Part shown: positions 32,001-63,533 of the stretch, one piece after another | Numbering within the stretch: the stretch's first letter is position 1 | How the letters are laid out: each line of letters begins with the position of its first letter | Translations under genes and position numbers: made by a program | Assembly: GCF_003073045.1 (NCBI RefSeq) | Contig: NC_037593.1 | Span: 23,803,868 to 23,867,867 of the forward strand | From: Pomacea canaliculata | Lineage: Eukaryota; Mollusca; Gastropoda; Architaenioglossa; Ampullariidae | DNA length: 64,000 nt | Direction of reading: 5' to 3' | Notes under the pieces: generated by a model | Databases searched by the model: none | The model's input: only the letters and a program-made list of their open reading frames with translations | What the model was told of the DNA's origin: nothing

Positions 32001-34240
32001 TCTCAAGCATCTAGATATGTGAGAAGTTTATGATGACTTTAGGGTGAAGGTCATGCTGTGTGATCTGGGGTGCTATGGTGTTTAGATTAAGCATTAAGGT
32101 GGCCAGAGTTGGTTTGCATGTTCAAGTGTCAAAGTGTTACATCCTTAAAGATGTATTTTTTGCCTGACCAGTTCTGTTCATGTCTGCAGACGTCAGCTAC
32201 AGGACTTAGCTGGATCTTGCTGTGCCTCTCACAGCACCCACACATCCAGCACAAGGCCCGACAAGAAGTACTGTCAGTGCTGCCCCCTAGAGGCCAACCC
32301 ATCACACCACAGCATCTGGACCAGCTGGCTTATGTGACTTGTGTTGTCAAGGAGACACTCAGGTATAATCAGCGGCACCCTTGTGAAGGTTAACTGTAAA
32401 ACTGTCAGTGCAAGCAGATGGCATTACACAAGATTATCCTAAAAAATAACCCCAAAAACAGCCCAACAAAACTTTAGACAGGTGTTCAGCACTGATGCAG
32501 TGTGCCTGAATGTGCTGAAATTTTTAGGGGTTTTTATATAGTTATTTCATGGAGTTCTATATGTTGTCTTACCCAGATTGTACCCACCTGTGCCAACAAT
32601 CATGAGAGAAGCAAAAAACGATGATATTCTCTGTGGTTTTCCCATTCCAAAAGGGACGATCATCAACATTAGTATTGGAGCGTTGCATAGGTGAGTTTTT
32701 TTGTGTGTGAAGCTTTTAGGCACTTTATGTTTTTTTTAATGGATTTCTTCAAATGAAGAAGAAAGGTCATGTTTATAATTTACTATCACAAAGTGTTGCA
32801 TTGTGTCTGGTTTAGAAACGCCCAATGTGAAAGCTAAGAGCAGATGTTTATGAGATATTGCCCAATGAGCAACAGTACCCTACAAGATTTTATATCATGA
32901 CTTCGTATCTTTCATGCACAGACCAAAGGTGCCCATGCAAACCATGTTTTCTGTCACCCTTTTAGACTGAAATTATGAAAAGAAAAAGTATGGTCCTTCT
33001 TAACCAAATACCCAGTGTATGGTGGACAAAATGTTGTAAATTGAATAAAAGTTTTGAGAATTGTTTATGTAAAAGAATTCTGCAGTTGGACTTTATTCCT
33101 CTACTGTGGAGTATATGTGTGTGTTCCCTTTAATATCGAAAGGTTAGAAGCATTGCCATGTTCTTTTAGTGTTGGCTAGAAAATTGGAAACGTCAGGGGT
33201 TTAGTTTATTAATGCCACTGTTTACTAAAATCCAAGTGAAACATGCACATTGTTGTCTTTCTGCCTAAACAAGATCTCATGATCATGTTCTCAAATGTTG
33301 GCTTTCTGATTGGGCAAGATATTATTTTCATATTCTCAAAGCTGTCACATTGGCTATGGCCTTAGGGACATCAGAAATACAAATTTAAGTAAATGAATGT
33401 GTGCCTTTCTTTATAACAAAAGTTTTAAATGCATTACAAATGTTTATAAATTGCTGTATAACTAAAAGCTAGCTGTATCTTCTACTAATTTGCAAGCAAG
33501 TTTTGAGCATATTTGAGGAGCTAGCCTTCAAGTCTGTTGAGTAATAATATACCACACTTGTGCCTGTACTATTTTAAACCTGTCCATATTTGAAGTTCTG
33601 CAGCATGCAAATGTGGTGGTGCACTGGCTTCCTTCTTCGGTGCTTCTAATTCACTTGTGTCAAAATCATTGCCTCCTAGTACATTGGTTACAAAAACTCT
33701 TCCCCTCTTCCTTTATTTTAACACCCAGGATGACTTTTGAAACATTATCATTTGTTTCAAATTATACTTTTTGTATTGGATTATTATTCCAGTAGATCAA
33801 GCCAGTCATTTTGTTTTCACCACTCATTCTGATGAATAGGATATATATAAGAAATGGTAAATTAAAGAACTTGCACTCTGCTTGTGTTGTTAAATCATTG
33901 ATAAACTATTAATAATTTTTTTACACAACTTTTTACTGAATCCATATGTGCTTCAATATATTTCAGAAATCCAGTATATTGGGACAACCCTGAGGACTTC
34001 AGACCAGAAAGATTTATGAATGAGTCGGCGATTCCACCATATGCATACCTGCCCTTCATCAGTGGACCACACATGTGTATTGGCCATCGATTTGCTCTCC
34101 TGGAAATGAAGCTGGCACTGGCCATGCTTTTGAGGCAGTTTGAATTTTCTCCCCTGCCCGATGTTGTCTACAAAAAGAAGCAGTTTATTACAATGCGACC
34201 ATATCCAGCTCTCAAGTTGAATGTCCGATGTCTGAGCTAA
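26024..34240 (+). CDS. Microsomal cytochrome P450
   Basis: Eleven exons: 26024-26179, 27486-27568, 28295-28438, 29233-29339, 29962-30080, 30483-30603, 31065-31213, 31499-31623, 32190-32362, 32577-32690, 33967-34240, giving about 521 residues. An N-terminal membrane anchor (about residues 22-45) precedes a Pro-rich hinge (IPGRPRG). Hallmarks present are the I-helix AGHETS, the K-helix KETLR with YPPVP, the PERF motif (RPERF) and the heme loop FISGPHMCIG with its cysteine ligand. It is probably an ER monooxygenase; the CYP family cannot be fixed by eye, but the anchor and I-helix argue against a mitochondrial type. Exons 5 and 6 do not join in phase: one extra base is needed between 30,080 and 30,483 to give LANA-A-FDVITESGFG. 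This is probably a lost G at the donor, real or from sequencing. The heme loop has His where most animal P450s have Arg. Confidence 0.88.
26357..27002 (+). mobile_element. 5'-truncated RTE-like LINE
   Basis: The plus strand encodes the C-terminal part of an RTE-type ORF2: LYGSETWRLTNTITNKIQTF, then HHILNIRWP, then GWNPQG, VGRPRQTRKRS, AAGMTWTQLERDAQNRVRWR, followed by a GAAGAAGAA tail. It is flanked by an imperfect target duplication of about 18 bp (AATCCTTTTCTCA-CTCC at about 26,339-26,356 and 27,003-27,020). Internal stops show that it is dead. It lies in P450 intron 1. Confidence 0.88.
27176..27368 (+). repeat. tRNA-like SINE copy
   Basis: The most complete copy seen here: GGTAGTCCAGTAGTGCAAAG (box-A-like), the ACCTGTCACCAATACAGTGA block, then GTCCTGGGTTC (box-B-like), then the shared GGCTGGCTGCCTTGCCATGA body and the GGTGTAAAACACCAAT end. 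It lies in P450 intron 1, downstream of the RTE copy. Confidence 0.8.
28718..28828 (+). repeat. Tandem duplication, period about 55 bp
   Basis: Two adjacent diverged copies, each running from TGCTCACAGA through CCATTGG to ATAGGATGCA or GTAGGATGCA, lie in P450 intron 3. Confidence 0.7.
28846..29010 (+). repeat. Diverged tRNA-like SINE copy
   Basis: Shares GCCTGTCACCATTACAG, CTTTCTCTGAATGTG and CTGTTTACAGG with the SINE copies at 20,681 and 27,176, but is more diverged. It lies in P450 intron 3. Confidence 0.6.
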
Positions 34241-35410
34241 AGCTGGAAGGATAGCTGGAGAGCCAATCAATGGGACAGCGAAATCAGACACACATATATA
34301 CGTATATACATATTTGCCTGTGAGTACACTTATGCTCATGCATTAAAAAAGTTGTTAAAGTAGTGCTTACAGTAGTTTAAAAATGCACCTTAATAGCATT
34401 TGATACCAGTTTGCAACAACATTTTTCTGAAAACTGCAGCATCCCTATATCCAAGCGTTTAAACATTTGTATTTTTAGGTCTGCAGTACTCATACATCAG
34501 AACTGCTTTTTATTCTCTTCTATCGTTATATACTTGTATATGAAATCAAGGCATATGACAAAAATACAGAAATGGAACTTGGGGCCTGTCCTCCAATATT
34601 CTTCCATATGCCAAACTGGCACATAAGGTTGTGCTATTGTAGGAGTACAATATGTTATAGTGAACCATCATTGCTGGCTCGTCTCATTCCGCACTGTTTG
34701 ATTGTGCAGCAGCTTTGTGGACTAAATATAGAATGATTCTGCAACTCTTTATGAAAACCAAGATTTGTAAAGATCACAAAAGCAAATTGATTAAACACCT
34801 GATTTGTTTAAATAATGTACTTAATGGCATGTATATGTTTTTATCTACTCAGATTTGTTTTATGTACTCTTGTAAATGCCTAGTAATTGCAAGTATCGAC
34901 AGCTACATAAATCCCTGTGTGCAGCATATTCATGCATGACATTGCTAAATAGTATTATTTTTAGCTCTTTATAGCACTGAGAAGTTATATATATATTTTG
35001 CATAATGAACAATACCAAGCTTCTTTGATCACTTTGAGATGCTTTCTTATACACGTGATAAGGACAACAGATATGCATCTAAACCCTCGAGGCATATGGT
35101 TTGTTGGCGGAGCTTTTAATGTGAATGAGGTTACTTGCAGTGAAAACCCTTTGTTGATGAAAGGAAGCGGTTGATTTCAAATGATCTTACATCTGTAAAC
35201 ATCTGGGTTATATATATATATGTTAAGCTATTTAGTGTTAAAAGGGGAAACACACAGCTTACATTAGATGAGATCATAGTTATCAAGATTTAATCAGGTT
35301 TAATCCTCAGGAATTTGTGAATCTTTTGAAATAACTTTTTTACGTTATCTTTATAAACTATTTTTTGTATTATGATGCACATATTAAAATAAACTATCAT
35401 AATGTTGTGT
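34241..35410 (+). other. P450 3' untranslated region
   Basis: There is no open frame of note from the stop codon to the AATAAA at 35,388-35,393, so this is probably a 3' UTR of about 1.15 kb. Bases about 34,717-35,188 recur in degraded form at 63,534-64,000. Confidence 0.65.
35388..35393 (+). terminator. Candidate poly(A) signal of the P450 gene
   Basis: AATAAA followed within about 20 bases by a GT-rich stretch (TGTTGTGTGTGTTT), the usual downstream element. Confidence 0.65.
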
Positions 35411-47300: not shown

Positions 47301-50300
47301 ACAGTTCATTACCAACACCAACATGAATGATCCCCAAAGTGCATCAAATGGTTGTATACCATTTATTTATGATTTTTTTATGGTAGAGGTTGCAAAAAAA
47401 TCCATTTTTTTAAGCACCTGACACTTGTCCTTTTCTCTGACCTTTAAGGCCCTGCATTACCCTATTCAATGGATTACTGATGAGAAGATGTTTCTAAGGC
47501 ACATTCTGATCAACATTTTTCTCAATGTAAATCACTTTTCAATTCCAGTGATAATAGGTGAGAAGCATTATCCAACACTAAAATATTGTATACAACTTTT
47601 TCAATCTACCAGTCAATAACCTGTAATATTTTGTCATCATTCTGGACAAATTTAAGGGGTGCCTTTCAGTCTCAATTTATTACTGAATGCAGTTCATGTT
47701 TATGGCTGATTTATAATGAGTGACAATATAATGTATAGCCAGAAAAATCTGTAGGACTGTCTGCATTGCCTACAAATGCTAACTCAGCAACATATTTAAT
47801 CTACCTGTAAACGTACTGCATAGCTAGAATAAATTTTAATGACATAACATGCCAAGCATAACTTTTCAGACCTGAATCCAGTTGTGCCAACTTTTTGTGG
47901 CACTGCTAATCTAAATTTAACATAATGAAGCAGTTGAAGAACAACTCTTTGTGGATATATGCATGCGTAGACACCTGTCTATGCAACTTATGACCTGATG
48001 GTACTAAGTAAATGACATCTGCCTTCAGATTAGTTGTATGAGGTGTTGAGATAGGTCAGATTAGGAAGCCTTAGTCTCCACCTAAACCACAGATTTTGTA
48101 GCTCTCCATTTCTAAGACCTCTGTTTTCAGATGTTTTTGGAATTAGATGGATTGTATTCTGATATGATTGTAAATATCAGGGGTACAGAACACTGAAGTT
48201 CTACTGCTCTGCAGTCCAATCTGGAACGTTTCATGAAGCCAGTAATAGCTAATACTTGATGGTTTGAAACCAACTGATGGACTGACTAAACAAACTTCCA
48301 AAATAAGAAATTGACTAAATGGGCTTTGATCCTCAAATGATTGATCCAGACATCTGCCAGACTTGGTGCCAGATACACTGTCCCATTCCAGTTTCAACAT
48401 AAGATCACATTTTTTAAATAATAAATTTCTGACTTGGAATACCTGACTTCATGCTGCTGAACATAAATTAATTCAGGAAATTCTACAAACCTTTTAGTAG
48501 CTTTTTGTATGCGGAGTTATCTTCCAGGCGTAACATCAAGTTGACAAATTCTCGATAACGACGTTTAACACATCCTGTTCGTAGAACTGGTATACCCGTA
48601 TCAGAGAAGTGAAGAGCTTCATACTTTCCACAAAAATAAAGAAAACTTTTTATTTGTACATTGCCCATAAACTCATAGTGCACTGTATAACACTACATAT
48701 TATATACCACTTGTACTTATATACATTTATATTCACAGTTCTCTCTTAGTCTAAGGAGGGTCATGTTACAACATAGAAGTATCATTTTCTGCTAAAACAA
48801 ATAATAAAGATTAAAGTTTTTTCATAAACTAGATCCCCTCATTTACAAACATATCCCCACATATACTCTACAGCAGTATTACATTATTCCCTGAACAATA
48901 CATTCATTTTGACAAGCAATACACTGATGTTACCCACAACAATTTCATGGAACTTAAAATTGATTTATTGAGGAAAAAGTCACTAAAAGTCAATTTTAAT
49001 CAAGCTGTGAGTTCAGCCACAGTAATTTCAATAAACATCTCTACAATACATATACACAGTGTAATAAATCTGTAATCTCACCATAACAAACTTGTTACCA
49101 CATCATTTTACAACAGTATGAATTAAGATGTGACACCACCGATCCCAATCTGGTTCAAGCTTTAGATGAATGGTAATGTGGTCAAATGCTGTCATTAATT
49201 TGTAATTAATTAATTTCACAAGTTTATACATGTAGCCACAGATTTTCCCTCTCTAACATGCGCACACACACACAAAACAGGCAAGCTCAAATAATACTCA
49301 AACAACACCCTCTCCCTACCATACCTCGTATTATTCTTACTATAAAAAAAATGCCCTACCTCAATTTGGTAAAGAGTGAACTGAGAATTGCTGCGGAACT
49401 GTTGGCACGTCATTGTCCAAGCAATGGAGATGTCCTGGAAGATGAAGGAACTATCCAGTGATGGCCCTGACCTTCCATCACTAATCTCCCTGCTCTCCTC
49501 CCCCTCCTCATTCAGGTCAAATGCAACATCTGTGTTTTTCTGATTTTCTTGGGCATTGTTTTCTGTTGGCATAACATCATATGACGACACACCAATTACA
49601 CTGTAGAAGGGGGAAGAGTTGAGGCTCGAGCTTGAGCTCGAGACAATATCATCCTCGTGCTTATCACTTTCATCAGTCACTTGCACAGATGGCACCACTA
49701 ACCCCGTTACAGACTGATCTGTGGAGACTGCACAGGATGTAGTGCTATCAAGAGAACTGAAACTGAAAGCATTATTTTCCAAGTCAGCTGGTGGAGATCC
49801 CAATGATTTTACTTCAGCAGGAGAGAGAGACATTTTCTTAGGTTCAGCTGATGCCTTGCGTATGCGCTGAAAGAATTTGATTAACTGGGTTGGACTAGGT
49901 GTCGTTAGAGTGCCTGGAGAGTGCTTGCCTTGTTCTCTTTCTGTCTCTGAGGACAGAGAGTCACTTGATGGGTCTCTACATCAGTTTTACCTTCTGCTGC
50001 TTGTATCACAATTTTGTCTTGTTTGCTACCAAAGTCTAAAAACTTGTTTGACCTGCTCAGCAGGGGGCTGAGACGCAAAGATTTCAGTTTCTGAACAGAA
50101 GATATATTGTCACTTGATACTTTGCTTGTCCCTTCTTGGCCTTCTTGTTCCATCTTCATTTCACTTGCAATTTCTACCTTTTCTACTTGCTGCTGTTTGG
50201 ATTTTTTAGGCCGAAAGAGATCTTTGAAAGCTCGAAGTTTGGGTCCTAAGGCTGGAACAGTTGTTACAATTTCACCATAAATGTTCTGTCTTTGTTCTGA

Positions 50301-51884
50301 ATATTCACCACTCCCATCAAGAATAACTGAAGATTCAACTGATTCTTGTGCACTCTTTGCAAGATCTAAGTTACCATTTCCAGTTTCATTATTAGAATCA
50401 TCAACACCAGTGGCATCAGACACAACAGGAGTTACAACTGTTGTGTCTGTTATTGAACGGTCATTAGAATGGGACTGATCTGTCATAATTGAAGTAGAAT
50501 CTAGTAGTGTAAACGATGGGCTGCCTTTGATTGCCTCATTCTCCTGTGCAACTTCTGAGCTTTCTTTACCATCTGCCACCCTTCTGCTTTCAGAATCTTT
50601 GTCAGTTTTAGTCTCTCTCACAATTAATTGCAAGGACTCTGTTTGAGAAATGTTCTTCTTTGAGTTTTCCTCCCAGGACTTTTCTTGTGAAAATCCCTGA
50701 CTTGATACTGGCTGTCTGCCTGCTGCACATTCAACATATTTGTTTGGTTCAAGCTTCATCGTATCTAATTTGCTGTCCAGCGACTCCATATGAGAACTTT
50801 CTGGGTTTTTTTGGCATGTATGTAACTGGGACTTAACTTTGCTAACCTCATCATCAATCAGCTGCCTCATAACATCATCACTCAGAATGACATTATCCCC
50901 ATTGTATGTTAGTCTTATCAAAAGTTCATAGAGTCGGTCGGGTGTGCTCAGCATTTCCATTACTGGAAGTACAACATTCATGGACAAAACTTCAGTAAGA
51001 AAAATCACCGTACTTCTGGTTGACGTAACATCTGGAGCACAAGTACCCATCAAAATCACTTTTGTTACTGCACGCAAGTATTGCCGTTCTGATTCTGCGC
51101 TCTCAAGTGCGTAGTGAAGCTGGAACTTTTCCTGAAACACTTCCTCCACCACCGTCCACCAATCATGATCCATCTCATCCTTTCCATCGTTGTATGTTGA
51201 CTTTTCAGAATGACTATCCTCAACACACATATAGAATGATGCCAGGTGTTGTTGATAGGAATCAACAAGTTCTGAGACAGTCTCGTGAGCAGACAGTCGT
51301 GAAATACGTTCCACAACATTGTGGATGGCTTTGAACAGAAACACCCGTGAGTCTTTCGGAAATTGTGGGTTGTAGCTGAATTTGTGATACCATACGTGCA
51401 CAAAGTCTCTAATTATGAGCAACGCTATTGAATTGAGCTCTAATCGAATGGCTTTATTGAAAATACCGCTAAAACTTGATTCTCCGTCGACGTCCAGGTC
51501 AGGTATTGCTGGAGAAGCGATCGACTCGCTGCGGGCTCGCAGTTCTGTACATGGTTCATGGCTCTCCGAGTTCTGTATACGATGTTTGATCCCCTTCAGA
51601 GTTTCGATCAATTGAAATAGCTTCTCTAGATGCTGTGCTATTGGCTCTGTATCCGAGTGTGACACATCGATTGATAGTATCCAGTTTGTAGCTTTGATTG
51701 TCAACACAATACTGACAATCAATAACACAAACAGACCATACTGACCAAACAAAACAGCTGCAAAAGCGCCTGCAACGATGATTATTATCAGTTTCTGTGT
51801 AGATGTATAACGGTTCCATTTACAAAATTCTCGAATAAAGTTTGCTACTCTTTGAATCACTATCGATTCTTCTGTCAGAGACAT
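41310..51884 (-). CDS. SNX19: Sorting nexin 19
   Basis: Nine exons (51884-49360, 48623-48491, 46598-46502, 45614-45489, 45146-44970, 44608-44413, 43071-42909, 42106-41922, 41401-41310) give about 1,231 residues. Order: two hydrophobic segments (about residues 32-64) likely anchoring it to the ER; a PXA domain (about 135-330; LLIIRDFVHVWYHKF); a long disordered linker; a PX domain (from about 815; VKRRYREFVNLMLRLED, KGPKRWVSLPF, ELREFLAY); and a C-terminal nexin domain (LRENVWPGG). The order and motifs match vertebrate SNX19, which acts at membrane contact sites and in endolysosomal positioning. Two single-base frame changes are needed: one between 49,905 and 49,980 in exon 1, one in exon 3 near 46,535-46,545. 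Outside these the protein is well conserved, so I favour sequence errors over a pseudogene. The exon 8 edge and the exon 9 acceptor region are tandemly duplicated. Confidence 0.92.
41400..41480. repeat. 40-bp duplication over the SNX19 last-exon acceptor
   Basis: ACCTGCAA followed by TAAATACT-GCTG-TCAGTCACAA occurs at about 41,400 and again at about 41,441. On the minus strand both copies contain a TTGCAG acceptor; the first copy is the one used by exon 9. Confidence 0.65.
42058..42362. repeat. Tandem duplication of the 5' edge of SNX19 exon 8
   Basis: Bases from about 42,060 to 42,216 are repeated, diverged, at about 42,219-42,361. The segment holds the start of exon 8 and part of intron 7. 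In the second copy the coding sense still reads WLCNSVSSLTTEEK. The acceptor AG has become AA, so that copy should not be spliced in. Confidence 0.75.
43698..43872. mobile_element. 175-bp MITE with terminal inverted repeats
   Basis: The ends are CAGGGCTTCTGCT and AGCAGAAGCCCTG, with an imperfect inner hairpin rich in GGGGTCCC/GGGACCCC blocks. Five bases, ATCTT, are duplicated at 43,693-43,697 and 43,873-43,877. It lies in the SNX19 intron between exons 6 and 7. It has no coding capacity. Confidence 0.8.
44196..44226. repeat. Tc1/mariner-like terminus
   Basis: TGGACCAAAAGTATCTGGAC resembles the reverse of the widespread Tc1/mariner end TGTCCAGATACTTTTGG. Only one end was seen. It lies in a SNX19 intron. 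Confidence 0.4.
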
Positions 51885-54829
51885 ATTGTTAAAGTCATGG
51901 TGCTAGTTTAACGTGTGTAGCACTCGAAATGCATACTCCTTTTAATGTGGTCCTCCATGTTGGAAAGTCGCTGTACTCGCCGGATCATGTGACAGTCATG
52001 TGATGACTAACCCACTAGACGTCTGCTCGTTTTCATTGGTAACAGTGGTAAGGCGGCCTGAAAGGGAAAACCGCGATTTCAACCTATATAACTGTGGTTA
52101 TACTGAATCTTCATGCCTAGCGGACAGTATTTAAGGTTAATGGATTCCTTTGGGTAATGCTTATTTTATAACGTTGACATTTTCGAAGACACGCTGTCGG
52201 ACGGAAAAGATCAGATAGAGAAGTGAGGACCAGATCAAGTCCCTTAATGTCCATCTACACATCGATTACTTCTAGACGAGACCAACAGACATTGTACTTG
52301 AGATAGTCGATCCCTTGTCTATCTAGATATCGATTACTTCTACTAGACGAGACCATGAGACGATGAATTTGTTGAAAGGGAAAGGTCGACATACCGCGTT
52401 TAACAGTTTCTGCACAGCGTAACGTTCTGCTTGGGTGCAGACTGATATGATCAATGTTGTAATTATCAGTTGCTGTCTCTTGAAAACATCTCGTAATTGG
52501 TCCCGTCATACTGTCAAAGAACTAAAATAATTTTGATAATGTTTTTATTATATTTATGCATAGTTCAGTGTACGTCGCAGCAATTTATAAGATGTACAAT
52601 GTCAAAATGAAATATTTACCATTAGCTGTAGGTGATAAAAAGCATTTTAAAATATGCATAGTTGTGGCCAAATGTGTTCATCCATGTAGCATTTCTATTA
52701 ATTAGAAATTAATCAAATTTTAACAGATTACAGGCTTTATTTAATGTTACTTTTTCTTTTATATACATACATATGCACACTATATTTATGTTATATATAC
52801 ACATGCATACACGTACACTTGAGATTGATAAATGCTATTGCAATTTTTGTTGTTGATAGATTATTTATGGTGAGCATGAAAAGTATATTTGAATATTTCT
52901 TCATTCAACTCTTAATATTATCAAAAGTACTGAAAGGTACATGCTATACTTCCTCTTTAAGAATATATAAGCAGGTATATGCATTGATTACCTAATGACC
53001 AGCATTGTGTACATTAAGGTATTTTATAAGGTATTACTAATAAGGTAAAAATTGAAACTTTTTGTGGGATATTATGCATGTTTTTAATAGGACACCAAAA
53101 GAGATTCACTCCACTTAATGGAAACACTCAAAAACATTCACCAAAATATTATATTCTTTCCTTGGCATTTCTCAAGAACACAAATAAAGCTACATCTGAA
53201 ATTTCATGCATGCCTCAAAATATGACTAAAAATAAACATATAAATCAACTTTTTATCAGCATTCTATTTCACTTCACATAATCTCCAATTTCAAATCCTT
53301 AAAATATCTAAAGACAGGCAGAAAACAATGTATTTAGATTTTCTGCAGACTTCTGGTTAAAGAAAGGTGAACACTCTACAAAGGGTTAGGGGGCTAAAGT
53401 TCATTCAAAAACAAGTTTCATCATGCTAACAAAACACACAAATTTTCAAATTGAGGGAAATGGTATGTCAACCTGTTATTCCATGAATATGTATATATGT
53501 GTCCGTGGTTATTCACCCTTTTTCCTTCTTTGCCCAATTTCTTGAAAGATACATTTTTTGTTTAATAAGATAGAAGCTTCTTTATTTGGTAAGTCATCCA
53601 GGGTTGGTATTCATATGATGTCTGCAACTATTGACCTCATAAAAGTTGCTCAATGCAAAACAAAGAAAAACTGTCAGTCATACACATATTTTTGTAAGTC
53701 AGTTTCTTCATGCTTATATACTCATTACACACACACACACACAAAATCAACCAGAAATGTACCTGAAACCTGAAGAAAGGACATGACTAGTCCATAACCA
53801 ACCTTTACTGGATCAACTGGTCATATGCCCATAAGGCTAGGCTATCCCTATCAGTGAAAACAAACATGACTACATCCACATAGGTTGTTTCTGTGAAGAA
53901 AAAGATCTGCCTCCTTAAAGGTTCTTTTTAATTCAACAGGTATGAATAAAGTTAGGCAACGTTTTTATATAACTGTTGTGTAAAGTTGCCTAACTTGGTC
54001 AAATATTCACCCATATATGTCTAATTAAGAAGGACCTTTAGCTGAACTAACCTGAGAGTTTGCAGATCAAAGTCATGGCTCAAACAACAAATATACCACA
54101 CAAAATTATTTACAATTCAGCACCAATGTTTCAATGATGAAGCGTGCATAGGAAATTTACATAGGAACGATATAAGTGATACATTTCAATAACAGCTTAT
54201 AACAAAAGCAACAATATATCAACAACAACCATTTCTCAAAACTTCAAACCACCTTCATGCTGCACTCTTTCATGACAGAGAATAATTTAAATAGCAAATA
54301 TTTCTGTCTGGCGTTTAGCTCAGGTATGTTTTGGGGGCAGCAATGATTGACTCAGCTTCTGAAACAGCAAACAACAAGCAACAGTATTTAAATAAAAAAA
54401 GAATACCCAGTTACTCTTCCTCAACTTAGCATTTTTACTGGATGTTTCTCTTTGGGGTTTTATAACAGTTATTGCTTTAATAACACAGATCAGTGCACAC
54501 ATGAAAAATTACAGAAAATTTGGTAAACTGCACAATGGTGTTCATAAGTACTGCCTTGATCAATTTTTACAGTCACTTTCTAGAAAAGTCTGTTTTTCAT
54601 GATTATGTAGCACAATATCCACTACTGATGACTGGCTATTAGTTTCTGAAGTTTTGCTTCATTTTAAATCATACATTGACTGAACCAATCTTTACACAGC
54701 ACCTTCATAGACTCACAACTTTCTTATATCAGGTAGATCAAAATACCAGGCACTATACATCTGTCTAAATATCCCATGCAACAACTTCAGCATAAGTAGT
54801 GCCACATTTTGTCAAAACACTTCAATAGT
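51885..54829. other. Intergenic sequence between SNX19 and the CULT gene
   Basis: The SNX19 promoter should lie just right of 51,884; no TATA box is obvious. A motif of about 22 bases (CGATTACTTCTAGACGAGAC) recurs with small changes at about 52,262 and 52,330. The rest is AT-rich with short CA and TA microsatellites. The left part of the stretch ending at 54,829 is presumably the 3' UTR of the CULT gene. Confidence 0.45.
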
Positions 54830-57800
54830 TTAGAGAAATTTCTTGCCTTGTTCATGAAGCAGATTTCCTAAAATGAGTCCAATAAACTGCTGCATGTAAT
54901 TAGTTCTATGCATTGAATCGCTCATCACAGATGTACTAACAGGTTTGAACACCCTGCAATACATAAATTATTTGATTATTGTGCATCCCTCTATTCTAAA
55001 TTAAAATTTATTCACCAAAAAATCTAACAAGGTTTGAAGAAAAAAAGAATCATTAACTAGCATCATTTTAAAGAAATCTCACTCTCTCTTTTTTTCTCTC
55101 TCATGCTGCTTCTATGCATTTATGCTGAGAATCTCAGATGACAATTTCATATACCATCCTAAATGATATCCACAGCGAGGACAAACAGCTATTGTCCAGG
55201 TAAAACCAGGAAACCAGGAATCAGCTAAGTGAGGCTGCAACACGAGCCAATCATACATTGTTAAAATAATTTATTACAAATAAATAACTTATATAGCACC
55301 AAATCTTGGCAGGCTGATAGAGAATACCATAGGAGGCAATATATGTATCCAGCAGATGCTCCCACTTTGCTCAATTCATTACAATTAAAATATATGTATT
55401 GCAATTTATTATTATGTATTACAAACTACTTTTACCTGCAAGATGCATAGCTAATCAGTATAATAGCCATAGGGAACATGAAATTACTTTGTCAGATGTC
55501 TTCATGGCCTTGTCTGATCATGTGCCATGATATAGTCTTAGTTACTGGCATGGCTTTAAATATAAACATTGTCTGATCATGCCTATCAGAGCTACTCTAT
55601 CATCCATGATGATCTCTTCCATCAGCTAATGCTGATTTTCATGAGCCACAAATTAGATAGCAGAATTTCAGCCAACTTTCCTTCTTCTTAGGCTCTGGAA
55701 TTTGGAATCTCCTGCCTCTTTCTCTTTAAACTGTGATTATGTTTAAAGTTTTTACATCCAGTTTCAAAACACCTAATTATTTTTGTCAAAACTGAGAAAA
55801 TGAGGAATAAAGGAAGATGGGTTTGGGGAGCCTTTACCCTTCTTGTTTACCTGTTCAACTTCTTGCACATCTGCTTCAGAAGATGTGATCAGTTCAAAAT
55901 ATTTTCCTGTAAATATCAATAAAAAAAAATGATCTGATAAATCTGAAACAAACAAAGCAATTGTTACTGCTGACCAGGATGATATATGCACATCAAGAAT
56001 AAGATACAGCAAATAACAGCTCAAATGACATTGAAAACGAAGACTTAAATTTTTTTCCCCAGAAAATAGGAAAATAAACCCTATATCAAACCGCATTCTA
56101 ATACTCTTTCTCTCAAAAATAGTGCTTTCTAGGGAAGATTAAATACCTTGTGGATTTTTAAACAGCTGTATAAGTACACCTTTTGCACCAGCAAGTGTAT
56201 CATTTCGTTGTCTGTGTGCCAATTGACTTGGAATTTTTACTAGGCTGTCTGCTCTTGTTACTTCCAGTCCACAATGTCTACAGAGCAGGAAACCTAATCA
56301 CAAAAAGAGATGGAGGATAAGGTGAGGATATAAGTAACAAAATTAATCTAACCTTTCAAAACAGCCTCAAAGCTGCTGGGAAACAAAGTTTAGCAAATTA
56401 AAGACAAGGAGACATATGCTAGTCTAGCAAGTCAGCGACAAGTACACAGGTCAAGAGAAAACATGCCCAGCCTTTCTCAACCTTTTCTTATTACCCTGGA
56501 GGGGAGAGGGACAAGCAACTAAGGCTATATCATGTCAAGGCAACCACCCCTGTAAACAGATACCACATGCAGAGAAAGAACAGTGTGACAGAGATGAGAG
56601 AGCTGAACCCTGGACAGCCAGCCTTCACCAAATTGGTGACAGGTGCTAACCATTGCAGGACCGGGCTGCCTGACTCTGGAGAGACTGTGTTAATTATTTT
56701 CAGATTCTAAAAAACCTTCTGCAGGAAAAAAAAATCATACAGCTCATTCTATGGTAGTATGATCAACAAATTGTAGATATAATAATTGATATAATTATGC
56801 TGCAAGTACAATTGCAATTCACTTATCTGCCACAGATGAGACACAGGCAGTGAAATAAATGGTTTGAAGGTTTAAATTCTTTATCACTTACCCACATTGT
56901 CTATGTGTGACTATGGATAGCAATGCTCAAAAGTGAAGTTTTTTTAAAAATGATCTCATGGAACATGAGCAACTTTTCATGGAACTCTTGGTTTCTACAT
57001 AACTCTGATTTGAAAAAAAAAGGTTGCTTAAGTCTGTTGAAGACCATGTGTGTTGGAAGAGAGAATAGAATAGTAGGAAATATTAAATAAAGAAGTGAGC
57101 AATGTAAACAATGAGAGGTAGGTCTCAGAATAAGACTAATATGAAGATATGGGGAACTAAAATTAGCCAAGCCCATTTAAAATTCATTTGCACAAATAAA
57201 AATAGAACAGCTCAAGTTTCAAAGCAAAATTAATTACTATAACAATTCTCCTGTTAATTAAAAAATGATCATGCTGGAGATCCTACCAAACAGAGAAAGA
57301 CTACAGCTGTGCAGTTTGACATCAGAAATGCACAAGTTTCATGGATACAAAACCTTCTGCTCTCATAAAAATCTATCATCATTCAAAAGCGCCCTAAGCT
57401 GCATCACAGGCAATGCAAACGAATAAGCTAAATGTTACAAAACATAATTATCGGCTGCATCTCTAGATGAAAATATTGTGATAAAATAATTAGTTAATAA
57501 GTTAATGAAACCTTGGCTTTAAAAAGTGCTTTTGGTGCCATCTGACAAATTACATAGCCGATTATCAACTTCATATATCTGTTAAAATTTTGCCTCTACC
57601 ACAATGTTCTCTTAAAGTTGTGCATGTGTGCACAGATCATGCAGTAGCAAAGAGTATTCAAGTTTCCAACGCACACAAACACCTACATTGGAGGGGAAAA
57701 CCCACTAATGTGGTTGACAACCTTTGTTTCTCTGTATGCAGTTCACAGATGCATTTTTTTCTTTCCTCACACCTTCCATTACCAACACTTCCTATTATTA

Positions 57801-58624
57801 GTATATAGAGATATCACAAAAATATTCTCTTTGTTTTTGGTCTATCAATTATTGCTTTGGTTTTCCTTCATGGACAGTCTTCTGTTTATTCCATATGTTA
57901 AAAATGCAAACATTCATTTTCAAGCATGATGCCTTTTTCCCTCCAACAAAATCACACAAACCATCCCTCGACCATTTGTGTTGACTGTGAAAACTTTAGT
58001 GCATAATTCCTCCTACCCGTTGGGTAGTTGCTGGCACAGAGTAAAACAACCAACCAACCCTGTATCCTACCCGTTGGAGGGTATACTGTTCTCTGTACAA
58101 AGCTAAATGAATAAAATCTAGCATCAACGAATCTTTTCGTCAACGAATCTTTCGGGTGGTGAGGGAGATATGAAGTGGGGAGGGGAGATGCATGTGAGGG
58201 TGAATGGAAAAAAGTTTTAACTAAACCTTGGAAACTGAAAGCATGTGACTTTGCTGCCCTGAAAATATCGATCGTAAAAGACAGGATCTGCGCCTAACCT
58301 GCTCACGACACAGGACTGAATCTTGTGTGTGTGTGTGTGCTATTTGTTCACTTTACACACCACACTTGAACAGTAACCGTTGCTGCTGACGCCGAACAAA
58401 AGCTTAAAATGTGATAAGCATATGGATTTGATGAAACATCCATGCAGTCTAATCACACCCTTTCACTTTGAAGCTACATATAATGGCCATGCAGTCACAC
58501 CTTCAAAGTGGTCAGCAGTGTTGCACATTGTGCTTGCAAGCAGTTGCGCCAGACAAACAACGTACAGCATCTCTATCGAACTAGCCAGCATTGCAGACGC
58601 CCTGCAAGACCAGGGCGCAGACAT
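54830..58624 (-). CDS. Secreted single-domain CULT (cereblon-like) protein
   Basis: Five exons (58624 or 58591-58501, 56293-56147, 55906-55851, 55234-55155, 54953-54830) join in perfect phase. Starting at 58,591 gives 165 residues; the ATG at 58,624 adds 11. A hydrophobic signal peptide (MLYVVCLAQLLAS) is followed directly by a CULT domain, the ligand-binding domain of cereblon. It shows the zinc pairs CRHC and CPRC, the NPQGKYFELIT strand, and SWFPGFTW with HLGW. The last two place three tryptophans as in the cereblon drug pocket (W380, W386, W400 in human). There is no LON domain or DDB1-binding region, so it is not cereblon. Secreted single-CULT proteins are known in animals, but their role is not established. 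The C-terminal 40 residues are helical and unlike cereblon. Head-to-head with the HDBP-like gene about 0.8 kb away. Confidence 0.82.
55527..55557 (+). repeat. Short SINE 3' fragment
   Basis: TGCCATGATATAGTCTTAGT and following bases match the 3' part of the SINE at 27,176. Confidence 0.5.
56500..56672 (-). repeat. tRNA-like SINE copy
   Basis: The minus strand reads CCTGCAATGGTTAGCACCTG, then TCACCAATTTGGTGAAGG, then GTCCAGGGTTCAGC (box-B-like), then the same body and end as at 27,176. It lies in intron 1 of the CULT gene. Confidence 0.8.
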
Positions 58625-59429
58625 TATGGCAGGTGAATTGTGGGAAAAGCAGCGCGAGCGGCAAAGTTGTGACCGAGTTTTCCCCGCCCCCATTTTGTTC
58701 CTAGCTGTTCCGTTTACCGTACTTGATTGACGATACGATTGCATTGTTTTTATGTTCAACTAGTAAAACATATGTGATATTAACTTTTGATAATATAAAC
58801 TAAATGCTTATATTTCTAGTACTTTATAATATATTAAGTCACATTGTTTACTGTCATATCTATAGAAGTACCATACATATTGTTTTTTTAAAAAAAATGT
58901 GACGCTGTTGAAGTCAGCACCGGTATAGATATCAGGACATTAATTCTTTACTATCAAAAGTACTTTATTTTTGAGACAAAATTTTAAATTGCAATAGCAG
59001 ACGGTGCACATACTCAATTTCAACCCTGTTAGATGAAAAATGTGCAGAAAGCTTTCGTCTGACTAAAACAGAAAATCGGTGGCAACTGTACCAAACTTGC
59101 GCTGACCTTTGCACTCAACTTTCAACCTTCAAGTTGAGTGGCAGCTACGGAGAGCTAGCCAACCAAACCCAGGAGGTGTGGCTAGGCCGCCCAACTAGAC
59201 TACGTTCTGCTGATCATGTGGCCGTGTTGACGTTGCGCGAAAGCTCCGCCTTTGCCAGCACCAAAACAAACCGGCGCAGTTCGCCGGCATTTGGTTTACA
59301 TCCAGTGGTACTGCTGCGGGACGTCAGCGATTGCTGTTGCATACCTGCGCATTTGGAAAATTGGGGAAAGACGCCAACTTTAATTTTCATTGTAATTGTT
59401 ACCTTGATCTCATGATCACTTAATAAGTT
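58625..59429. promoter_or_regulatory. Region between the divergent CULT and HDBP-like genes
   Basis: About 800 bases separate the two start codons. The right half (59,100-59,430) becomes GC- and CpG-richer, as expected for a promoter. No TATA box stands out. The open frames at 59,134-59,564 on both strands look like by-products of this composition. Confidence 0.4.
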
Positions 59430-61271
59430 ATGTCTGGGACAAAAACGATTGGCAAGCGATCTATCGTTGGGACTCGAGTGAGTGCCTTGTGGCAAAGATG
59501 GCGGTTTTACCCTGGCGTTATTCGTGCCCAAGTGGCCGAAGAAACAACTCTTCTTCAGCCACATACACTATCCATTTTGACGACGGGTTCGAAGGCAGAT
59601 GTGCCGACTTCACATGTGATCGGTCCTGGATTTCAGACAGGACCGGCTTGGTTTCGTCTAAAAAAAAGCACAAAGGGTCTATGTCACGATGAACGGTCGA
59701 GAAAAGTGTCCGGCTTAGTGGTGTTATCATAACGAGAGTCGGACGAGGTGATAAATCACCGTCAAACACGGCAACACAGAGAATGTCAACATCTGCCGCA
59801 GACTTGAAGACGTTCGTCTGATGGAAAGTCGAAAATCTGCCAGGCTTGTTGATCAGGACACAGACTATTCAAAGCTGGCCGATTTACAGCTCAGCGAACC
59901 CAAACGCCGGGCTGTTTTCCCACAATATTGACGTTCCAGCACAGGCTTTCAAACAGGCAGTAAGTGTGGTTTTACGGTTTTTTTTTTCCTCTTTTAAATC
60001 GTGTGAACACTCCTCTTTCTCTATATGTTACAGTCTTACTGCCTTTGTTAACGTGCTTACGCCACTTCAATGCCTTCGTTTACAATGTTTTGCGCAAAGC
60101 AGGCGGTCCGGTAAAGCGGACACAAAAGTAAGGTCAAGTCACAGGCCCCAGCTGATTCTTGCGTAACTTAGCCGGCCACCAAACGTGGCTTGCCCGCAGT
60201 CATTAAAAGAAGTGTTTTTCTTCCACGTGTAGTCAAAATAATTATTTGATCCCTAGGGAACGGGTATTTTAATCGCAAAATGCTGTTCTTTAAAACCCTT
60301 ATCTTACGCGTTGGCTGCGCACTTTATGGGCGTTTACAAGTGACTGCACTGGACTTTCACGGCAGCCGGTGGTTCGAGGCCCAGCAACCAAAGAACCGAG
60401 CCGTGATGACGTTAGCATTTTCTTTAGCGAGCGGGACTTTTCGCAATGTGTGTGTGCGTGACTGAAGAGTTGAATATTATTTACTTTTAACTGTTGAAAC
60501 AGGATATGATCATTTATGATAGTTTAGCTTTTGCTGAAATGAATGTGCGTGATGGTCGGGCGGCCTGTTTAACGAGCGTTAGCATATGTTTGTCCTGATA
60601 CTTTGCGACAGGCGCAAAGACGCACCGCGATAGCTCAGGGGACACAGAAGGGTCGAGCGAGAACGGCGGAAACTTCGACGATGTTGAGATGATGGACGAA
60701 ACCATTGCTGCCATGGTGCTCACCTCATTGTCTGTCAGTCCCAAGTCGCCAACGTTCCCCAGCAATTACAGAGGTACCTGGGCTGTCTTCTCTTGCGCCG
60801 GCTCTTACACCATTTAGAAACCTATACTTTTTCATGCCCCATGTTTATGCCAGAGATTACGGAAAAGTTATTATCTCACATACAGACATTATCATCACAT
60901 AAAAAGTTATCACAAATGTTTATGGAACCAAAGTCTGAAAAAAGATATGCACTTTGCCAAATAATGGGGAGGTTAGGACATTCATATCCCAAACAACAAG
61001 TTGTGAGACAACAACATCCAAAGCTACTTTTTTCATCAGGTGCATGCAGCAGCTGGGAATCATCTTCAAGAACTTCAAGCCCTGCATGCTCCAGTAGTGT
61101 AGCAAGTAGTGGTTTTTCTACAGTGGTCATTAAAAGAGATGACCTTCCGGCACCAACATATGGGTGGCAGTGGCTCCATCCCCCCTGCTCCCTTTGAATT
61201 TCAGGTTCGGTCAGATGCTGGTGCTTGACAAGACAGCACAAGCCCTGCTTGACTCCAACATTAGTGGCAAG
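59430..61271 (+). CDS. 5' part of a ZNF395/ZNF704 (HDBP family)-like transcription factor
   Basis: Exon 1 (59430-59959) opens with GKRSIVGTRVSALWQ, as in ZNF395 (GKRSLLGARV). A Tudor-like stretch follows (RFYPGVI; TYTIHFDDGFEG), then LEDVRLMESRKSARL and NIDVPAQAFKQA; NIDVP is a family signature. Exon 2 (60620 or 60612-60773) carries MDETIAAMVLTSLSVSP, matching the conserved MDEMMAAMVLTSLSCSP of ZNF395. Exon 3 (61040 to about 61271) is Ser-rich like the family (SSSVASSGFST). The C2H2 zinc-finger exon is not present and should lie beyond the gap. Exon 1 changes frame about six times within 530 bp while each segment keeps family motifs. At least one homopolymer (TTTT at about 59,915) is involved. 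This looks like uncorrected sequencing indels. Gene model incomplete. Confidence 0.72.
59495..59504 (+). promoter_or_regulatory. YY1-like site inside exon 1
   Basis: AAGATGGCGG matches the YY1 core consensus and lies 65 bases after the HDBP-like start codon. Downstream YY1 sites are common in CpG promoters. It is also part of the coding sequence (WQRWRF), so function is uncertain. Confidence 0.4.
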
Positions 61272-63433
<2,162 letters not shown>

Positions 63434-63533
63434 NNNNNNNNNNNNNNNNNNNNNNNNNNNNNNNNNNNNNNNNNNNNNNNNNNNNNNNNNNNNNNNNNNN
63501 NNNNNNNNNNNNNNNNNNNNNNNNNNNNNNNNN
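63434..63533. other. Assembly gap of exactly 100 N
   Basis: One hundred N bases, the conventional placeholder for a scaffold join of unknown size. Confidence 0.99.

Follow-up and report, generated by a model that had tools for sequence, protein, structure and literature searches.

A gene for a candidate secreted CULT-domain protein, separate from cereblon, in Pomacea canaliculata

Thalidomide-type drugs act on cereblon, which also serves widely as a handle in targeted protein degradation. A stretch of 64,000 nucleotides from Pomacea canaliculata (NCBI RefSeq assembly GCF_003073045.1, contig NC_037593.1, positions 23,803,868 to 23,867,867 of the forward strand), hereafter the window, carries a real gene on its minus strand, between positions 58,693 and 54,315, which to judge from its letters codes for a candidate signal peptide followed by one complete CULT domain. 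By the same evidence the gene is a new member of the published family of secreted animal CULT proteins, and an old gene separate from cereblon. The protein is quite probably secreted, and the reading favoured here, with somewhat less assurance, is that of a single-domain CULT protein which would, by analogy with studied relatives, capture cyclic imide or ureide ligands outside the cell without ubiquitination. Many animals keep a second, secreted version of cereblon's drug-binding domain, and the snail gene model, with the snail's own cereblon as an internal comparison, offers a tractable protein for probing the extracellular role of the pocket. As the family is already published, the snail gene enlarges a known kind and does not found a new one.

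The gene model, in window positions, consists of the following features:

58700 to 61500, no strand: CpG-rich 5' flank, CpG observed/expected ratio 0.85, with a probable promoter edge at exon 1
58501 to 58624, minus strand: coding part of exon 1, candidate signal peptide MLASSIEMLYVVCLAQLLAS(TMC), then NTADHFE
56147 to 56293, minus strand: exon 2, first of the zinc pairs (CxxC, here CRHC), an insert that contains one N-glycosylation sequon (NDT), and the beginning of the NPxG hairpin
55851 to 55906, minus strand: exon 3, GKYFELITSSEADVQEVEQ, return strand of the hairpin
55155 to 55234, minus strand: exon 4, SWFPGFTW, CPRC and HLGW, second zinc CxxC
54847 to 54953, minus strand: exon 5, last base of the Trp 125 codon, VFKP, insert of about 14 residues, C-terminal segment FIGLILGNLL
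54315 to 54358, minus strand: likely exon 6, EAESIIAAPKTYLS and stop, preceded by a GC-AG intron

Five of these exons had been proposed in a preliminary description, made from the letters of the window alone, and their borders (58693, 58624 or 58591 to 58501, 56293 to 56147, 55906 to 55851, 55234 to 55155 and 54953 to 54847) were recovered as claimed. The exon end phases (1, 1, 0, 2) are compatible, the first four introns are GT-AG, and the five-exon products come to 176 or 165 residues, in agreement with the lengths of 165 to 176 given there. The likelier starts of exon 1 are the ATGs at 58624 or 58591, with further in-frame ATGs at 58744, 58693, 58570 and 58528 and an in-frame stop (TAG) upstream of the exon at 58762. 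Introns fall before PHLADSWFPG and inside the Trp codon of GW, such that exon 4 encodes tryptophans 105 and 111 together with the first two bases of the codon for Trp 125. Splice sites were scored with a textbook matrix, by which donors 1 to 4 outscore 89.5 to 98.6% of the GT sites on the strand and acceptors 2 to 6 outscore 83.2 to 99.3% of its AG sites, the weakest acceptor and the weakest donor both being those of exon 4.

A sixth exon (54358 to 54315) behind a GC-AG intron is likely, since the GC donor (CAAG/GCAAGA, outscoring 99.8% of GC sites on the same strand by the same matrix) is followed by a good acceptor 488 bases further on and by an open frame of 14 codons to the stop, and since the sole difference here from a second assembled copy, described below, turns the stop TAA into the stop TGA. 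Without exon 6 the frame finishes in GKKFL and a stop at 54830, while with it EAESIIAAPKTYLS replaces GKKFL and the products have 174 or 185 residues.

The identity of the domain was approached through known structures and through bacterial relatives. Searched with phmmer, the PDB yielded 46 distinct sequences at E <= 0.001 (best 4.5e-10), and every one of them carries the name cereblon or cereblon isoform 4. For the bacterial set, two short motifs taken from the SWFPG and NPxG of the query matched 49 stretches, from which 29 loci were confirmed; 28 of these were used, L022 being left out because the motif filter found no frame in it. A profile built from the 28 bacterial rows gives the 174-residue product 74.0 bits, against 11.2 bits for the best of 1000 shuffles. 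When the same profile was run over the 2864 open stretches of at least 15 amino acids in the six frames of the window, exon 4 ranked first (44.5 bits), exon 2 second (12.9 bits) and exon 5 fourth (6.2 bits), all on the minus strand and in the correct order, with exon 3 not among the matches listed. In the bacterial rows 28 columns show conservation of 80% or more; the product matches 24 of them, where 302 shuffles reach at most 5, and it matches all 15 of the invariant columns. It counts against the domain assignment that agreement at the SWFPG and NPxG columns comes partly by selection, because the bacterial rows were retrieved through these motifs of the query; the CxxC pairs, GW and the C-terminal segment lie outside the retrieval motifs.

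Motif by motif, the product contains CxxC twice, NPxG, SWFPG-x-x-W and GW. CRHC and CPRC fall on CxxC columns that all 28 bacterial rows conserve, and in the 174-residue form the cage residues are W105, W111 and W125, with the hairpin motif at N77-P78-x-G80; the earlier claim of a complete CULT domain, with both zinc pairs and three cage tryptophans, is thus borne out by the alignment and by the profile score. Two inserts set the product apart from the bacterial and cereblon rows, one of about 16 residues before the NPxG hairpin, which carries the sequon, and the other before the C-terminal segment. The preliminary description had further regarded the C-terminal 40 residues as an extension unlike cereblon. 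This part has to be withdrawn, as FIGLILGNLL is the conserved last CULT segment, common to cereblon, and lies in register with the bacterial F-x-GLI-x-x-x-L and with the corresponding human segment, QKFWGLTRSALL.

A Pfam-A scan of the 208-residue form found no family at E <= 0.001, and the best Pfam-A match of the 174-residue form was Yippee/Mis18 (PF03226; E 0.0028, 18.2 bits), under its cut-off of 26.6 bits. This family has a related beta-tent fold (PMC4287342). An NCBIfam scan gave six matches, the best at E 0.059 and all far under cut-off. As no Pfam model catches the product at E <= 0.001, routine annotation may miss such genes. In a viral sequence collection four stretches fitted a search pattern, and none of the four encodes a relative.

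The gene lacks any detectable LON part. With human cereblon as the probe for both LON and CULT, tblastn found no LON match in the window (best E 1.2) or in the next 39.2 kb, upstream of the gene (best E 4.0); this agrees with the earlier view of a protein with no LON part, and no upstream LON exon was encountered. The genome (440,159,624 bases in 24 contigs, the window being C4:23803868-23867867) was covered by a Pfam LON family search, which gave four matches, none on the contig of the window, and which itself missed the true cereblon. In three regions around these matches, cereblon LON scored no better than E 0.17 and the CULT profile no better than E 0.19.

The true cereblon of P. canaliculata lies on another contig (C9, plus strand), where LON and then CULT are found in order: matches on the LON side start at 17,873,032, 17,874,994, 17,883,247 and 17,885,584 (E 2.9e-12 to 3.3e-4), and those to CULT at 17,889,838 and 17,893,568 (E 3.3e-26 and 6.6e-17). 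Its presence in the same genome upholds the earlier description of the window product as a CULT-only protein apart from cereblon. In all, the genome search with cereblon fragments (E <= 10) marked five places, of which two are on C9, one is the window gene, one is its copy, and the last (E 4.8) is no better than chance. The CULT domain of the snail cereblon is identical to human cereblon at 66 of 109 positions (61%), and to the window protein at 30 of 107 (28.0%); the window protein and human cereblon share 29.6%. In a tree of 31 rows, in which the bootstrap was not settled, many branches were long and no animal CULT-only sequence was included, snail and human cereblon pair with support 100/98, while the window protein falls outside this pair, at the end of a long branch and with no supported neighbour. 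Furthermore, an intron of the snail cereblon splits SWFPG from YSW and the introns of the window gene lie elsewhere. Given that snail cereblon is so much closer to human cereblon than to the window protein, the window gene is an old one, separate from cereblon, and the two most likely parted before the split between snail and human.

Secretion was judged by hydropathy and (-3,-1) sites only. The hydrophobic stretch MLYVVCLAQLLA has a mean Kyte-Doolittle value of 2.23 across 12 residues, a value equalled or exceeded by 5.1% of the window's 591 frames that open with ATG. Eight phase-1 candidates for a first exon, with four different donors, were found between 56.3 and 64 kb, and the top three in hydrophobicity all end at 58,501, starting at 58624, 58591 and 58570. 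The signal peptide of the preliminary description thereby gains moderate support from this stretch and from family precedent, with the proviso that starts at 58693 or 58744 leave the stretch non-N-terminal. The CpG observed/expected ratio of the 5' flank contrasts with 0.20 in the gene body (54315 to 58500). A promoter edge at exon 1 is probable from this sharp change, and the contrast would be expected if the gene body is methylated in the germline and the promoter region next to it is not. TATAAA is present at 58828, and a GC box, GGGCGGGG, at 58689, directly after the 58693 ATG; the GC box may mildly favour a transcription start downstream of that ATG.

Conservation of the exons can be followed in a second assembled copy. 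A genome search with the window protein (E <= 0.001) gave six matches, three in the gene and three in one near-identical copy whose exons lie 29.3 kb away; as cereblon was not listed by this search, further remote CULT genes are possible. The window contains a scaffold gap of 100 N at 63434-63533, and the sequence directly behind it aligns, from its very first base, with the window at 34718 and beyond, so that the 28.7 kb before the gap (34718-63433) recur from 63534, the alignment running up to the gap edge (63415). The repeat copies differ by about 1-2% mismatches and by hundreds of one-base gaps, each of four long aligned pieces having 82 to 164 mismatches but 183 to 538 gap openings. For the P. 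canaliculata genome a heterozygosity of 1-2% is reported, and alternative contigs were removed only under 200 kb (PMC6129957). In view of this removal limit and heterozygosity, of the repeat abutting the gap and of the very many gap openings, the repeat is read as two overlapping contig ends, probably two alleles. A tandem duplication giving a second gene was considered and rejected, as the structure of the repeat at the gap fits an assembly duplicate. Because of the overlap, the assembly probably contains the CULT gene and the gene next to it twice.

Between the copies, the six exons show 3 differences in 627 positions and the five introns 70 in 3722 (Fisher p 0.007); one exon difference is synonymous, one exchanges Ser for Gly and one leaves a stop as a stop, while the exon 1 region (58693-58501) shows none in 193. 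The exons are under constraint between the copies; against this stands the point that the differences may include sequencing errors.

Animal proteins consisting of CULT alone, with a secretion signal, have been described from placozoans to fishes, one of them being a sand fly salivary protein (PMC4287342). The examples of this group II include zebrafish NP_001121712.1 and Trichoplax XP_002115135.1 (Lupas, Zhu and Korycinski 2015, PMC4287342). Like them, the window gene has one CULT domain and no LON, and a candidate signal peptide precedes the domain; in these respects it fits the published description of the family. A paper on the sand fly catalogues secreted proteins without assigned function (PMC2714351). 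In the open-licence literature searched, no functional study of the secreted animal group was found by title or abstract. With cereblon the window protein shares the CxxC zinc pairs, NPxG, the three cage tryptophans and the C-terminal F-x-G-L segment, but it differs in the lack of a LON part, in its intron positions, in its candidate signal peptide and in the two inserts. The stand-alone bacterial proteins (MsCI4 of Magnetospirillum, PDB 4V2Y, and the 28 loci) consist of CULT alone, as does the window protein. They are 30.1-41.2% identical to it, compared with 30.4% for human cereblon in the same alignment, and lack its larger insert and most of the second.

In addition, bacterial CULT-only loci are assigned by their record titles to Eremiobacterota, Cyanobacteria, Limisphaera (Verrucomicrobia), Chloroflexi and Acidobacteria (L002, L006, L017, L025, L029, L014, L021, L023 and L026). 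This spread is wider than the proteobacteria and one spirochete of the 2015 paper (PMC4287342), the loci coming from metagenome bins in which misbinning is possible.

A mechanism can be outlined for the favoured secreted protein. The signal peptide would likely send it into the secretory pathway. By homology, its four cysteines would coordinate a single zinc ion at the beta-tent apex. The thalidomide cage of studied CULT domains consists of three tryptophans stabilised by the NPxG hairpin (PMC4449219). In the window protein the hairpin and three tryptophans, placed by alignment and with their geometry presumed, would form an aromatic cage like the site that holds the glutarimide ring of thalidomide in cereblon. 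Lacking LON and a DDB1-binding part, the protein would not be expected to recruit a ubiquitin ligase, and would most likely do no more than bind, either extracellularly or within the secretory lumen. Its ligands may carry a cyclic imide or ureide ring, being either small (of the uracil, uridine or hydantoin type) or C-terminal cyclic imides that damage or ageing has left on proteins. Such binding seems the likeliest role from the kept cage taken together with known bacterial and human ligands: a bacterial stand-alone CULT protein binds thalidomide and uridine with low micromolar affinity (PMC4449219), and human cereblon recognises C-terminal cyclic imides, which arise when the backbone is cleaved during ageing or stress, or by way of PCMT1 (PMC11974815). 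The isolated thalidomide-binding domain has also been put through phage display, which gave mutations for a cereblon-derived cyclic-imide reagent, and lenalidomide, an occupant of that domain, abolishes the substrate enrichment of the reagent (PMC11974815).

Several observations weigh against a secreted imide or ureide binder. The hydrophobicity of the candidate signal peptide is only moderate, and a start at 58693 or 58744, the in-frame ATGs further upstream, would bury the hydrophobic stretch inside the protein. Within the pocket, the residue two before the first cage tryptophan is Asp, where human cereblon has His (H378), and the place of human Y384, after WFPG, holds Phe. Among the 28 bacterial rows the His378 place is Asp in two (L008 and L012) and Phe in 16, and the Y384 place is Phe in 11 and Tyr in 17. 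Mutation of this Tyr in human Y384A gives a thalidomide-binding-deficient mutant (PMC4449219). Moreover, the open-licence literature searched named no ligand for any secreted CULT protein of animals.

Three other explanations were weighed. That the protein is not secreted is quite unlikely: translation would have to begin at the ATG at 58693 or 58744, which do precede the hydrophobic stretch and lie below the TATAAA, yielding a basic, Arg/Ser-rich N-terminus that would direct a stand-alone imide binder, or a competitor of cereblon, to mitochondria or the cytosol. The GC box, however, would fit a later transcription start, the later ATGs before the same donor supply the three most signal-like of the eight candidates, and the published animal CULT-only proteins have secretion signals (PMC4287342). 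It is also unlikely, if less strikingly so, that the cage no longer binds imides and that the protein has another task, either as a structural or metal-binding extracellular protein or in binding a methylated or heterocyclic side chain. The two inserts and the Asp could reshape the pocket, and other ligands of aromatic cages are discussed by Lupas 2015 (PMC4287342), but the protein keeps all three tryptophans together with the NPxG and SWFPG motifs, and the same Asp recurs in two bacterial rows. Most improbable is that a copy of cereblon has decayed or been truncated here, or that the LON exons of a cereblon isoform were missed; for this the shared domain speaks, exon 4 being found by the cereblon probe at E 4.9e-9. 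The coding exons are intact and differ less between the copies than the introns do, and the intron positions are unlike those of cereblon; a cereblon fragment was rejected on the lack of LON matches in the window and the next 39.2 kb, the true cereblon on C9 and the pairing of that gene with human cereblon in the tree, apart from the window gene.

As a special form of the secreted, ligand-capturing protein, an extracellular damage reader is a tentative and rather doubtful idea, drawn by analogy from cereblon. Secreted CULT proteins would here recognise fragmented or aged proteins outside the cell by their C-terminal cyclic imides, the mark that cereblon reads inside it, and would clear or signal them without ubiquitin. 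The two inserts, and the Asp where cereblon has His378, would tune the pocket to a ligand other than that of cereblon. The words 'extracellular' and 'secreted' do not occur in the main text of the cyclic-imide study (PMC11974815).

Two further coding regions accompany the gene in the window. The next gene on the same strand (49905-51902, minus) is an open frame of 665 amino acids with a PXA domain (E 5e-27), sorting-nexin-like in character. On the opposite strand, at 33908-34240 (plus), a Pfam scan of six other frames of the window found a cytochrome P450 exon (E 6.3e-25).

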